From NCBI GenBank assembly GCA_024403855.1, contig JAKSRC010000007.1, positions 1 through 64,000 on the forward strand: a DNA stretch of 64,000 nucleotides. The letters run 5' to 3'. The stretch is from Saccharofermentans sp. Lineage in GTDB: Bacteria > Bacillota > Clostridia > Saccharofermentanales > Saccharofermentanaceae. Position numbers and translations under genes: made by a program. A model generated the notes under the pieces. It made no database searches. It was not told where the DNA came from and worked only from the letters and a program-made list of their open reading frames with translations. Positions 11,109 to 14,622 of this stretch are shown here, piece after piece. The number at the start of each line of letters is the position of its first letter. The stretch's first letter is position 1.

Positions 11109-11831
11109 TCAGACCTCACTATCCATAAGAGCCTTCAATGTCTTATCGTGACTCCTTACTGAGTGCGGATATTCAATCTTCTGGTACTCTTTACCCTTCT
11201 GCTCACAGATAATCTTAACGAAAGAATCAGCAATTACAGGATTCTTAAGAAGCACCGGACCTATGAGACTTATTCCAAGAAGATTGTTCTTGCGTGCTGC
11301 ATCTTTATGCATAGGAACATTACCGATTACCTTTACGACATCAAATGCGAGATCATCTTCAACATCAGGTGTACCTGCTCTGTTGACGAAGCCTACATAT
11401 TTGTCGCCTGTTGTATTGTCAGACAAAATTACATCGCCTGTATAACGCTTTTCGGACTGTTCCTTGAACGAATAATTAAAGATTCCCAGGCCTTCAATAA
11501 AGCCTGCATCAGGTGTTGTAATGCCCTTTCCAAGAATGTCGTAGCTGTTGCCTGTAAAAAGCATCGGGACGCCCTTTTCGAGTGCCTCAATATGGCCTGA
11601 CTTAAACCTGCCAAGGTGCTTAGCAGCAAGATTTCTACTGGACTCAACACCTGAACCCATATAAACAAAATCTGCATCTGCAAAACTGATATCGTTGTCT
11701 GTAATCGTGCGCTCAATTATCTCGACTTCAAAGCCCTGGTCTTCGAGCATCTTTGTGAGGATACGGACATTAGCATTATCGCCGTAAAGACTCATAAAAT
11801 CAGGATACAGGTAAAGGATCTTTACGTTCAT
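11109..11831 (-). CDS. GatD-like class I amidotransferase domain lacking catalytic Cys and His
   Basis: Homologue of GatD, the glutaminase half of the MurT/GatD lipid II isoglutaminyl synthase that amidates D-Glu in the peptidoglycan stem. Alignment by eye is straightforward: LYGDNANVRIL near the start, the segment PMLFTGNSYDILGKGITTPD...EGLGIF, and NLLGISLIGPVLLKNP. In GatD the nucleophile lies in ICGGYQ and the catalytic His in YLHGP. Here the Cys position is Gly94 and the His position is Ile190, so glutamine hydrolysis should be impossible. The frame is intact at 240 residues and overlaps murT by four bases, so this is not simple decay. It may act as a structural partner of the MurT-like ligase. 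Family confidence is high; the function is open. Confidence 0.82.
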   Translation of the reverse strand: MNVKILYLYPDFMSLYGDNANVRILTKMLEDQGFEVEIIERTITDNDISFADADFVYMGSGVESSRNLAAKHLGRFKSGHIEALEKGVPMLFTGNSYDILGKGITTPDAGFIEGLGIFNYSFKEQSEKRYTGDVILSDNTTGDKYVGFVNRAGTPDVEDDLAFDVVKVIGNVPMHKDAARKNNLLGISLIGPVLLKNPVIADSFVKIICEQKGKEYQKIEYPHSVRSHDKTLKALMDSEV

Positions 11832-13174
11832 GAAAGTTCCCTCCTTGTAACGAGCGAGAGAATCTTCTCCTTATCAGAAAAACATGTGATTACATAAAGG
11901 AATGAATCAAGATTCTTAGCGCAGTAATCAGCCGCATCGCTGACCTGCTCGAAAATCTCCACCTTGTCAGAAGCGGCTCCCGCAAGCTCGAATCTGATTG
12001 CCAGATCATCGCAATACTGACCTGCAAGAATGATCTTGTCGATACTCTCATCATTTAACTTCTCGAAATTAATATCCCAGAGCCAGCTTGAATCCGAAGT
12101 GTAGTATTTACGACTGATTGCATCAACGATTATCATGACGCTCTTCTTGCGCTTATCGTTGACTACGACATCGATTGAACGGTCATAGGATACAGAATTC
12201 TCGTGCTTGGAAAGAAGAAGTCTGCCGTTGAGATTGCCCAGTGTAAAATCAGAGATACGACCGGACTTTAAGATGTATCCGCCAAGAGCTTCAGCGACCT
12301 TCTCCGGCGCAATTCCGGCAATAACCGAAGCAGTATATGCAGCAAGGATATTGTAGCAGTGATAGATTCCCGTAAAGAAAACAGGAATATCGTACTTGCC
12401 GTCTATTGTGATGAAATCCTTGCCATCGACATTCTTAATCGAAGTAAGTGAATGATCGGTATTATGTCTTTCAAATCCACAGGAAGTGCACTTGAATTTT
12501 CCGATGTGATTGTAGTGGTAATATTCGTATTCCATCGGAGCTTTACAGATAGGGCAATACTTACCGTCGTTATAGATACCTTCGTGTGTATCCATATCGG
12601 TAGGAAGCTTATCAGCACCGAAATAAACCGTACCGGGTCTGTCCTTGCCAAAGCTTGCAACAAGCGGATCGTCGCTGTTAAGTATCAGCGTCATGTCGTC
12701 GTAGATTGCCTGGCCAATGACGCTCTTAATAAATTCCGGATGGCCATTTCTGGTCATCTGATCCCTGTAAAGGTTGTTAATAACGAAATACTTGGGATGG
12801 AAATGCTTGAATGTGTGTCTTGAATAACGCTCATCTGATTCAAGCAAAATAACGTCACTTTTGACCTTTCCGCTCATCGTGGAATCGCCTACGAGGAAAG
12901 TAACTACGCCTTCAATCTGATTGGAGCCTTCTTTGTTATAAGCAACCTTGAGGCCGTTACTCTTCAAAATATGAGCAATCATCTCGACAGATGAAGTCTT
13001 ACCGTTAGAACCGGTTACAGCTATGGAAAGCTCAGGAAGCTTAAGCTCGGATAAAATATCCGGGCAGATCTTGAGGGCATACTTACCTGGCAAGCTCGAT
13101 CCACGTCCGACAAGCTTGGCAAGTCCTCTTACAATTTTGCAAACAAGTATAGCTGTAAAAACTCTTAATTTCAT
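11828..13174 (-). CDS. murT: MurT-like Mur ligase (lipid II isoglutaminyl synthase subunit homologue)
   Basis: Mur-ligase family protein of 448 residues with a central ATPase P-loop TGSNGKTSSVEMI (about 55-67), a four-Cys zinc ribbon CPICKAPMEY...FKCTSCGF (about 207-235) typical of MurT, and a C-terminal DUF1727 region with the DSSWLWDINFE segment. MurT activates the D-Glu carboxylate of lipid II with ATP and accepts ammonia from GatD. Just before SWLWD this protein reads IIVDAISRKYYTSD, which does not resemble the Asn/Asp-rich active-site stretch I know from MurT. Together with the Cys-less GatD next door this suggests an altered reaction. The gene begins with an ATG only about two bases after its predicted transcription start and has no ribosome site. 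Confidence 0.82.
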   Translation of the reverse strand: MKLRVFTAILVCKIVRGLAKLVGRGSSLPGKYALKICPDILSELKLPELSIAVTGSNGKTSSVEMIAHILKSNGLKVAYNKEGSNQIEGVVTFLVGDSTMSGKVKSDVILLESDERYSRHTFKHFHPKYFVINNLYRDQMTRNGHPEFIKSVIGQAIYDDMTLILNSDDPLVASFGKDRPGTVYFGADKLPTDMDTHEGIYNDGKYCPICKAPMEYEYYHYNHIGKFKCTSCGFERHNTDHSLTSIKNVDGKDFITIDGKYDIPVFFTGIYHCYNILAAYTASVIAGIAPEKVAEALGGYILKSGRISDFTLGNLNGRLLLSKHENSVSYDRSIDVVVNDKRKKSVMIIVDAISRKYYTSDSSWLWDINFEKLNDESIDKIILAGQYCDDLAIRFELAGAASDKVEIFEQVSDAADYCAKNLDSFLYVITCFSDKEKILSLVTRRELS

Positions 13175-13182
13175 AGTTAGAG

Positions 13183-13188
13183 ATTATA
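13183..13188 (-). promoter_or_regulatory. -10 element of murT, apparently giving a leaderless mRNA
   Basis: On the minus strand TATAAT is followed by only eight bases (CTCTAACT) before the murT ATG at 13174. Transcription would start near 13176, leaving almost no 5' leader and no Shine-Dalgarno. The -35 region is poor. Confidence 0.45.
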
Positions 13189-13297: not shown

Positions 13298-13325
13298 TTT
13301 ACTTTTTCGACACGTGGTATATAAT
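13298..13325 (+). promoter_or_regulatory. Promoter of the pheA leader
   Basis: A -35-like TTTACT at 13298-13303 and a consensus -10 TATAAT at 13320-13325 are 16 bases apart. Transcription should start close to 13332, which is the first base of the leader peptide ATG. No ribosome site precedes that ATG, consistent with leaderless initiation. If the true start lies further upstream the leader would need another promoter, which I do not see. Confidence 0.55.
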
Positions 13326-13331
13326 TTCGGC

Positions 13332-13394
13332 ATGGTTAATTTTTCATTTACATGGCGTGAGTTTTCATTTTTTGCCTTTACGAAGTTGGGGTAA
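13332..13394 (+). CDS. pheL: Phe-rich leader peptide of the pheA attenuator (20 codons)
   Basis: A complete small frame of 20 codons plus TAA. Six codons are Phe (TTT at 13341, 13347, 13362, 13368, 13371 and 13377), i.e. residues 4, 6, 11, 13, 14 and 16, ending in the cluster FSFFAF. This density far exceeds chance and resembles the PheA and PheST leader peptides of enterobacteria in logic, not in sequence. Its stop lies 3 bases before the antiterminator arm. The peptide's role is to sense charged tRNA-Phe: a ribosome stalled on the TTT codons stops short of 13398, while one that reaches the TAA covers roughly 13398-13406. The peptide itself probably has no function. Confidence 0.78.
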   Translation: MVNFSFTWREFSFFAFTKLG

Positions 13395-13397
13395 TTA

Positions 13398-13476
13398 GTT
13401 CACTGCATGTAAAAAAATGATTTGATTTACGTAATTACAGAGCCCCGCAGTGAACAAAGCTGTGGGGCGTTTTATT
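13398..13476 (+). promoter_or_regulatory. Two-state attenuator (antiterminator/terminator) of pheA
   Basis: Terminator: GCCCCGCAG (13442-13450) pairs with CTGTGGGGC (13460-13468; one G-U pair), loop of nine bases, followed by GTTTTATT. Antiterminator: GTTCACTGC (13398-13406) is a perfect nine-base complement of GCAGTGAAC (13447-13455), which takes bases from the left arm and loop of the terminator, so the two helices exclude each other. When Phe is short and the ribosome stalls upstream, the antiterminator forms and pheA is transcribed; when Phe is ample the ribosome at the leader stop masks 13398-13406 and the terminator forms. No T-box conserved sequence is present. Confidence 0.75.
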
Positions 13477-13491
13477 GCAAAGGAGAGCATT

Positions 13492-14622
13492 ATGACACAG
13501 AACCAGGCTGGCAAGAGAATCGAAGAGATCGATGAGCAGATCAGAGAGCTTTTCGCAGAAAGACTGGAAGCTAGTAAAGCTGCGAACGAGACATTGAGCA
13601 AGTCCGAGATTTCCCTCAAGAGCAAGCGCTATGAGAGAAGCTACCTTTCAGGACTTCAGAGCTCAAATTCACTGATCGACAACTACGAGCGCGTACTCTT
13701 TTCGACGATGTTCAACTTGAGCCACTCTTACCGCAATACAGAGTACGGCACAAGAACAGATCTCGCTGACAAAATTCATTATGCTCTTGAGACAACACCC
13801 AAAGAGCTCCCTAAGTCACCAATGGTCGCTTGCCAGGGCATCGAAGGCGCTTACTCACAGATCGCAACAGATAAGATCTTCAGCCACGCAAACATCATGT
13901 ATTTCAGAACCTTCGACGGCGTATTCCAGGCAGTTGAATCCGGCCTTTGCAAGTTCGGCGTCCTCCCTATCGAGAACAGCTCTTACGGTTCAGTAACACA
14001 GGTTTACGACCTCATGGTAGGCCACAATTTCCACATCGTAAAGGACTTCAAGCTCAGAATCAACCACAGACTTCTTGTAAATACTGGAACAAGCTTCGAA
14101 GATATCCGTGAGGTTTATTCACACGGTCAGGCAATCGGTCAGTGCAGCAAATTCCTCAAAGAGCACCCTGAGATCAAGGTAAACATCGTAGAAAACACCG
14201 CAATTGCAGCAAAGACAGTAGCTGATTCAGGCCGCAAGGACATCGCAGCTATCTCATCTTCTGACTGCCAGCAGCTCTACGGCTTGGTATCAGTAAAGAA
14301 TGACATCCAGAACACCGATAACAACTACACAAGATTCATCTGCATCACAAAAGAGCTCATGATCTTCCCCGGCGCATCAAAGACATCCGTCATGCTGGCT
14401 TTGGGCCACACTCCCGGCGCACTCGCTGACACACTTGCTAAGTTCTCCTCTCTGGGTCTCAACCTCACAAAGATTGAGTCACGTCCTATTCCCGGCAAGG
14501 ACTTCGAATTCATGTTCTACCTCGACTTCGAAGCTTCTGCTTACTCCGAGGAGTTGATCACTCTCCTTTGCGAGCTCGACGCTGATCCTACAGAATTCGC
14601 TTATCTCGGAACATATATCTGA
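13492..14622 (+). CDS. pheA: Bifunctional chorismate mutase / prephenate dehydratase
   Basis: Converts chorismate to prephenate and then to phenylpyruvate for phenylalanine synthesis. Residues about 1-85 form an AroQ-type helical chorismate mutase (RIEEIDEQIRELFAERLEASK). The prephenate dehydratase domain begins at about 97 (ACQGIEGAYSQIA) and includes the NYTRFICI motif with its catalytic Thr. A C-terminal ACT domain has TPGALADTLAKF and IESRPIPG, the Phe-binding GAL and ESRP motifs, so feedback inhibition by Phe is likely. A GTG at 13450 is in frame but lies inside the terminator hairpin; AAGGAGAG at 13480-13487 sets the ATG at 13492 (376 residues). Expression is under the leader-peptide attenuator upstream. 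Confidence 0.93.
   Translation: MTQNQAGKRIEEIDEQIRELFAERLEASKAANETLSKSEISLKSKRYERSYLSGLQSSNSLIDNYERVLFSTMFNLSHSYRNTEYGTRTDLADKIHYALETTPKELPKSPMVACQGIEGAYSQIATDKIFSHANIMYFRTFDGVFQAVESGLCKFGVLPIENSSYGSVTQVYDLMVGHNFHIVKDFKLRINHRLLVNTGTSFEDIREVYSHGQAIGQCSKFLKEHPEIKVNIVENTAIAAKTVADSGRKDIAAISSSDCQQLYGLVSVKNDIQNTDNNYTRFICITKELMIFPGASKTSVMLALGHTPGALADTLAKFSSLGLNLTKIESRPIPGKDFEFMFYLDFEASAYSEELITLLCELDADPTEFAYLGTYI

Follow-up and report, generated by a model that had tools for sequence, protein, structure and literature searches.

What controls pheA in this clostridial genome? In E. coli, pheA is a classic case of leader-peptide attenuation (pheL-pheA; Rfam Phe_leader), belonging to the trp attenuator class. 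An initial annotation, made from the letters of the DNA, proposed that a Phe attenuator also precedes pheA here, with Phe starvation favoring transcription. Covariation and the conservation of a Phe-rich frame in relatives support this proposal, including its sign. We conclude that the element very probably attenuates pheA transcription by a ribosome-mediated mechanism, with charged tRNAPhe as the signal.

A Phe-rich ORF separates a promoter from pheA

The stretch of DNA analyzed (the window) is 64,000 nt long. By database records, its closest relatives are Saccharofermentans sp. and members of the Ruminococcaceae/Clostridiales, mostly of ruminant-gut origin; NCBI taxonomy places Saccharofermentans in the Clostridia, family Oscillospiraceae. 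The pheA product is of the P-protein type, with whole-length matches to PRK11898 (3e-63) and PRK10622 (3e-56) that nonetheless fall under the curated cut-offs. Downstream, the first ORF of appreciable size lies on the opposite strand, so the attenuator would serve pheA alone. The features discussed below are as follows:

13298 to 13303, plus strand: TTTACT, -35 box of the leader promoter, followed by a 16-nt spacer (sequence)
13320 to 13325, plus strand: TATAAT, -10 box, ending 6 nt before the leader ATG
13332 to 13394, plus strand: leader peptide ORF MVNFSFTWREFSFFAFTKLG*, with six Phe codons in 20; Shine-Dalgarno absent
13347 to 13360, plus strand: segment 1, inside the leader ORF, TTTACATG (13347-13354) and GTGA (13357-13360); pairs with segment 2
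13398 to 13413, plus strand: segment 2, GTTCACTGC (13398-13406) plus ATGTAAA; pairs with segment 1 or segment 3
13426 to 13432, plus strand: TTTACGT, 3′ arm of the inner antiterminator helix (with 13407-13413; fold, alignment)
13442 to 13468, plus strand: intrinsic terminator hairpin (3:4), GCCCCGCAG / CTGTGGGGC; 98.2% paired, -18.8 kcal/mol
13447 to 13455, plus strand: segment 3, GCAGTGAAC; partner of segment 2, or of segment 4 by way of GCAG
13470 to 13473, plus strand: U-tract of the terminator (sequence)
13480 to 13485, plus strand: AAGGAG, Shine-Dalgarno of pheA (sequence)
13492 to 14622, plus strand: pheA, bifunctional chorismate mutase/prephenate dehydratase, 376 aa (PRK11898, PRK10622)

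The layout first proposed holds base for base. The 20-codon leader with its six Phe codons ends in a TAA (13392-13394) three bases 5′ of segment 2, whose first nine bases are the exact reverse complement of segment 3, as the claim of perfect pairing requires. The terminator stem is followed by TTTT, and pheA starts 23 bases 3′ of that stem. The initial annotation overlooked the promoter (13298-13325), whose -10 box nearly adjoins the leader start codon.

The leader is conserved across one genus

We built a covariance model (R1) from the attenuator element. Searched against 188 genomes of the order, R1 matched 66, every one of them from a single genus. Of the 85 genomes of this Saccharofermentans-like genus, 65 carry the element in front of pheA; the remaining match (G088) is a copy at glmS. 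After identical sequences were dropped, pheA upstream regions from the genus and beyond yielded 62 distinct leaders. One parser match (L136, in G061) was a false leader and was removed. We also discounted the third-tier R1 matches L267-L270 (E 0.003-0.008), which have a terminator-like hairpin and no Phe- or aromatic-rich leader ORF, as well as match L277.

All 62 leaders encode a Phe-rich peptide, followed by the antiterminator arm pair and then a terminator. Thus, the frame that relatives were expected to keep is indeed kept: the ORFs have 17-30 codons, of which 5-10 specify Phe, and Phe makes up 31% of residues overall (356 TTT and 73 TTC codons, with exchanges between the two). Gaps in the first 60 alignment columns, the aligned Phe-rich part, occur only in multiples of three, and third codon positions vary most (0.48, versus 0.34 and 0.38 for the other two). 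The stop codon has two locations: it precedes the antiterminator arm, or falls within or past it (e.g., ORF end GFTA*, GGTTTCACTGCCTGA; L130, L134). A terminating ribosome would cover the arm at either location.

Several members of the genus carry pheA without the leader. In a separate group within the genus (L153-L157, in G137, G140, G089, G108, and G098), pheA lies a few bases after the end of a chorismate-synthase-like gene and has no attenuator of its own.

The leader peptide is probably translated from a leaderless mRNA

Each of the 62 leaders has a -10-like box whose distance to the ATG is 6-9 nt, and none has a ribosome binding site. The exact hexamer TATAAT is present in 60 of the 63 parsed rows, which comprise the 62 true leaders and the false row L136. 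In the -35 region, GTTTAC is kept in close relatives and a TTGC-type sequence is found in distant ones. Because the ATG sits only 6 nt past a conserved TATAAT box (6-9 nt in the relatives), the peptide is probably translated leaderless, a conclusion that is supported rather than proven.

Counts in the same genome speak both for and against a leaderless start. Of 30 cases of TATAAT-N5-8-ATG, 10 begin an ORF of 100 aa or more that lacks a close upstream start, versus 2 of 30 for the scrambled-hexamer control TAATAT, while the bare genome-wide count of TATAAT-N5-8-ATG (96) is barely above that of a reversed control (81). An exact -35/-10/ATG pattern with TTGACA had no match in this genome. In three relatives lacking the leader (L137, L139, and L149, in G107, G079, and G097), pheA begins immediately past a TATAAT box, which gives it the look of a leaderless gene.

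The transcription start is a predicted one, which leaves some room for the same attenuator to be transcribed from another promoter further upstream, giving an mRNA with a 5′ UTR. We regard this as unlikely. Across the 62 leaders, it is the distance from the -10 box to the ATG that is held at 6-9 nt and the -35 box that is conserved, while the spacer varies. Moreover, the pheA leader has no Shine-Dalgarno, whereas the aroF leader of the same genome has one.

On the other side of the intergenic region, a divergent MurT-like ligase gene (11828-13174, minus strand) starts 8 nt after a TATAAT box (window 13174-13188, minus strand). The region may therefore contain a pair of leaderless starts pointing in opposite directions.

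Three helices covary

We used an alignment of 25 diverse leaders (A1) to count pairing in each helix. RNAalifold returned only the terminator, since the antiterminator is its alternative and 1:2 is long-range with a varying register; we therefore counted pairs in named structures. The terminator is paired in 98.2% of cells, with double changes in eight of nine pairs. For the antiterminator, 94.6% of cells are paired and three of nine pairs show double changes; its covariation score was 0.239, versus 0.120 in shuffled alignments (0/500). Thus, both helices on which the initial annotation rested its proposal covary as it anticipated.

A third helix, which that annotation overlooked, lies further 5′. 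ORF codons ~6-8 (TTTACATG) pair with the end of segment 2 (CATGTAAA), and the helix is extended by GTGA (13357-13360) on TCAC (13400-13403), such that the segment 2 side spans 13400-13413. In A1, 72% of cells of this 1:2 helix are paired, with double changes in five of nine pairs. Its covariation was 0.149, versus 0.086 in shuffled alignments (0/500), and versions slid out of register reached at most 0.071. Compensated versions include TCTACAAGC with GCTTGTAGA (L035), TTGCAAAC with GTTTGCAA (L158), and CGGCA with TGCCG (L159). Segment 1 pairs more strongly with its own segment 2 (-9.9 kcal/mol) than with swapped ones (-7.4 kcal/mol; 0/20,000 permutations), and the difference persists in sets of 14 and 12 sequences that are less alike; these controls do not fully remove shared ancestry. 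Pairing of 1:2 is weak in some relatives (L064, L129, L132, and L147).

The inner antiterminator helix (13407-13413 with 13426-13432), likewise missed earlier, is visible in the close clade and is not obvious in distant relatives. We rejected it as a defining feature.

Predicted folds fit the E. coli logic

In the naked RNA, ViennaRNA gave a probability of 0.996 for 1:2 and 1.0 for the terminator. When segment 1 was masked, as by a ribosome on a middle Phe codon, RNA extending up to segment 3 formed the antiterminator (P = 0.99). When segment 2 was masked, as by a ribosome at the stop, the RNA formed the terminator, 3:4. On the complete RNA, the terminator beats the antiterminator at equilibrium even with segment 2 free. 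The switch must therefore be kinetic, with the antiterminator forming first; in line with known attenuators, we take it that the antiterminator must act by forming before the terminator.

These folds bear on whether the third helix matters. The initial annotation held that the element needs only two helices and is simpler than the E. coli design. If only the antiterminator and terminator counted, an untranslated leader would be read through. Both helices are real and conserved, and when naked RNA stops just past segment 3, the equilibrium favors the antiterminator over 1:2 (0.80 versus 0.19), making the outcome without translation uncertain. Nevertheless, a two-helix device is quite improbable. 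The 1:2 helix covaries, its true partners pair more strongly than swapped ones, and it is transcribed first, reaching P = 0.996 before segment 3 exists. The two-helix description is thus not supported, and the design follows the 1:2 / 2:3 / 3:4 logic of E. coli. Because the third helix ties the leader ORF to the antiterminator arm, an untranslated leader should also terminate.

A ribosome footprint ends ~15-16 nt past the first base of the P-site codon. On this model, a ribosome at the stop would reach about 13404-13405 and cover nearly all of GTTCACTGC. A ribosome whose A site holds Phe codon 11 would cover segment 1, while one at Phe codon 16 would not; early and middle Phe codons should therefore matter most.

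We infer translation of the leader, its leaderless start, stalling, and a response to Phe, which together would work as follows. Transcription would begin on the leader ATG or no more than two bases away, and the peptide would be translated leaderless. When Phe is short, the ribosome would stall on Phe codons and cover segment 1, leaving segment 2 free to pair with segment 3 once that is made; no terminator would form and pheA would be transcribed. When Phe is plentiful, the ribosome would reach the stop at 13392, its leading edge at ~13405 would cover segment 2, and the free segment 3 would pair with segment 4, ending transcription. If the leader were untranslated, segment 1 would take segment 2 and the terminator would form.

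The element shares with E. coli pheL-pheA a Phe-rich leader before the same gene, segments that pair as 1:2, 2:3, and 3:4, and an intrinsic terminator. Unlike pheL-pheA, it is clostridial, matches no Rfam family, and has a leader ORF without a ribosome binding site, and its segment 1 lies upstream of most Phe codons.

Charged tRNAPhe is the favored signal

Could the nascent peptide itself be the sensor, stalling ribosomes on a drug or metabolite rather than on tRNAPhe? Close relatives do keep the pattern FTW/S/G...FFAFT beyond the mere number of Phe residues. However, across the genus the C-terminal residues, the length, and the position of the stop all vary while the Phe content stays, the ORF of distant members runs into segment 2, and the target is pheA. 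We therefore consider an arrest peptide highly improbable. A T-box, or another tRNA- or metabolite-binding riboswitch that happens to contain an ORF, can be set aside with still more confidence: T-boxes do control trp, ilv, and leu genes in the same genome, but the pheA leader ORF starts at the promoter, leaving no space for 5′ structure, no Rfam model matched the window at its gathering score, and the genome-wide T-box search missed the pheA leader.

The Rfam search of the window included Phe_leader, and relaxed thresholds added only matches at chance level. The T-box covariance model (RF00230) gave no match at the pheA leader and six elsewhere in the genome, which precede ilvB, leuA, trpE, trpD, aspS, and a gene with an XRE-cupin start (reading frames judged by inspection). 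With its T-boxes sitting before these other genes, the genome handles phenylalanine differently. The T-box before the XRE-cupin gene (L004, G000:C19:14921-15164) precedes a reading frame in which the XRE-cupin N-terminus is joined to a long downstream part.

The attenuator sensing charged tRNAPhe is supported by the conserved Phe-rich frame, the promoter geometry, covariation of three helices, and the predicted folds. The element combines a conserved frame of Phe codons, a covarying and mutually exclusive antiterminator and terminator, a 1:2 protector, and a downstream gene that makes Phe.

Related leaders precede aroF and, in one subclade, glmS

On another contig of the same genome, a Phe/Tyr-rich leader, MKTAVFFYAYSYYYYFRENN, with an AGGAG ribosome binding site lies 199 nt before aroF (DAHP synthase) and is followed by a terminator-like repeat (L320; G000:C3:5159-6148 plus upstream). 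A Phe/Tyr aroF leader was present in all eight genus members examined (L313-L319 and L320). In other families, R1 also matched Phe/Tyr-rich leaders that precede aroF and have ribosome binding sites. Aromatic-dense short ORFs are common before aroF throughout the class (L338-L362 and L363-L402, from other families of Clostridia). In one sample of 39 further aroF upstream regions, 20 contain such an ORF, compared with 5.5% of shuffles that preserve base composition only, and a terminator-like hairpin is present in 16 of those 20. The examples tested from other Clostridia had no Rfam match.

A related element lies upstream of glmS in nine genus members of one subclade (G066, G073, G075, G088, G102, G111, G119, G134, and G141; loci L259-L266 and L271); none precedes glmS in the genome of the window. 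Where we read further (G073 and G119), the glmS operon continues with purF-like and dapL-like genes, named from inspection of their sequences. By eye, the glmS peptides (e.g., MKIIWFISYAYALHASDSKR) align with the subclade's own pheA leaders, Tyr standing in place of Phe at two positions; the glmS leader carries Trp, Phe, and two Tyr codons and lacks a run of Phe. The glmS element is a paralogue, a copy of the pheA attenuator made in one subclade.

We lean towards a wider reading, in which Clostridia run a hitherto unrecognized aromatic amino acid regulon by leader-peptide attenuation instead of T-boxes. In one genus, pheA would be served by a leaderless Phe leader; in many families, aroF would be preceded by Phe/Tyr leaders that have ribosome binding sites. 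A single duplication would have carried the pheA element to a glmS-purF-dapL operon, where Phe codons gave way to Tyr/Trp and the copy may sense something else.

Relation to known leaders and significance

The view that Firmicutes usually use T-boxes for this job stands in part. It agrees with the T-boxes at trpE, trpD, ilvB, and leuA in this genome; against it, leader-peptide attenuators have been reported in Firmicutes (PMC2965389, PMC5794164), and aromatic-rich leader ORFs precede aroF in many Clostridia. A His leader peptide upstream of hisS/hisZ in bacilli, described in 2010, was called by its authors the first regular leader peptide known to them outside Proteobacteria and Actinobacteria (PMC2965389), and a Leu-rich attenuator of ilv-leu was described in Staphylococcus aureus in 2018 (PMC5794164). 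Like the pheA element, these replace T-boxes with leader-peptide attenuation in Firmicutes; they serve other amino acids and genes. A candidate Phe uORF with a terminator upstream of aroF in Acholeplasma (motif uORFC-13-1, 2021) shares the position before an aromatic pathway gene (PMC8632094). It differs in gene and lineage, and is closer to the aroF leaders found here than to the pheA leader. In Sinorhizobium meliloti, the 5′ end of the trpL/rnTrpL leader RNA is the ATG of the leader ORF (PMC7298713). That leaderless start was mapped experimentally, whereas ours is predicted, and it belongs to a Trp leader of the Alphaproteobacteria. Among the papers covered by our literature search, none described a pheA leader in Clostridia or Saccharofermentans.

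Leader-peptide attenuation, its occurrence in Firmicutes, and leaderless leaders are each already known, and the mechanism here is ordinary. The element goes beyond the routine in its lineage, in a start that is probably leaderless, in sharing a genome with T-boxes, and in having relatives at aroF and glmS. In a rumen bacterium from the surroundings of Saccharofermentans, pheA appears to be controlled by E. coli-style ribosome stalling, in a class where T-boxes are the more familiar means. The finding adds a well-supported Phe attenuator to Clostridia, where T-boxes get most of the credit for amino acid control, with both systems in one genome. The alignment made here can be used to annotate the pheA element. 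Its probable leaderless start offers a natural test of ribosome-RNA polymerase coupling in an attenuator without a Shine-Dalgarno, and the glmS copy allows the re-aiming of a duplicated attenuator to be studied.
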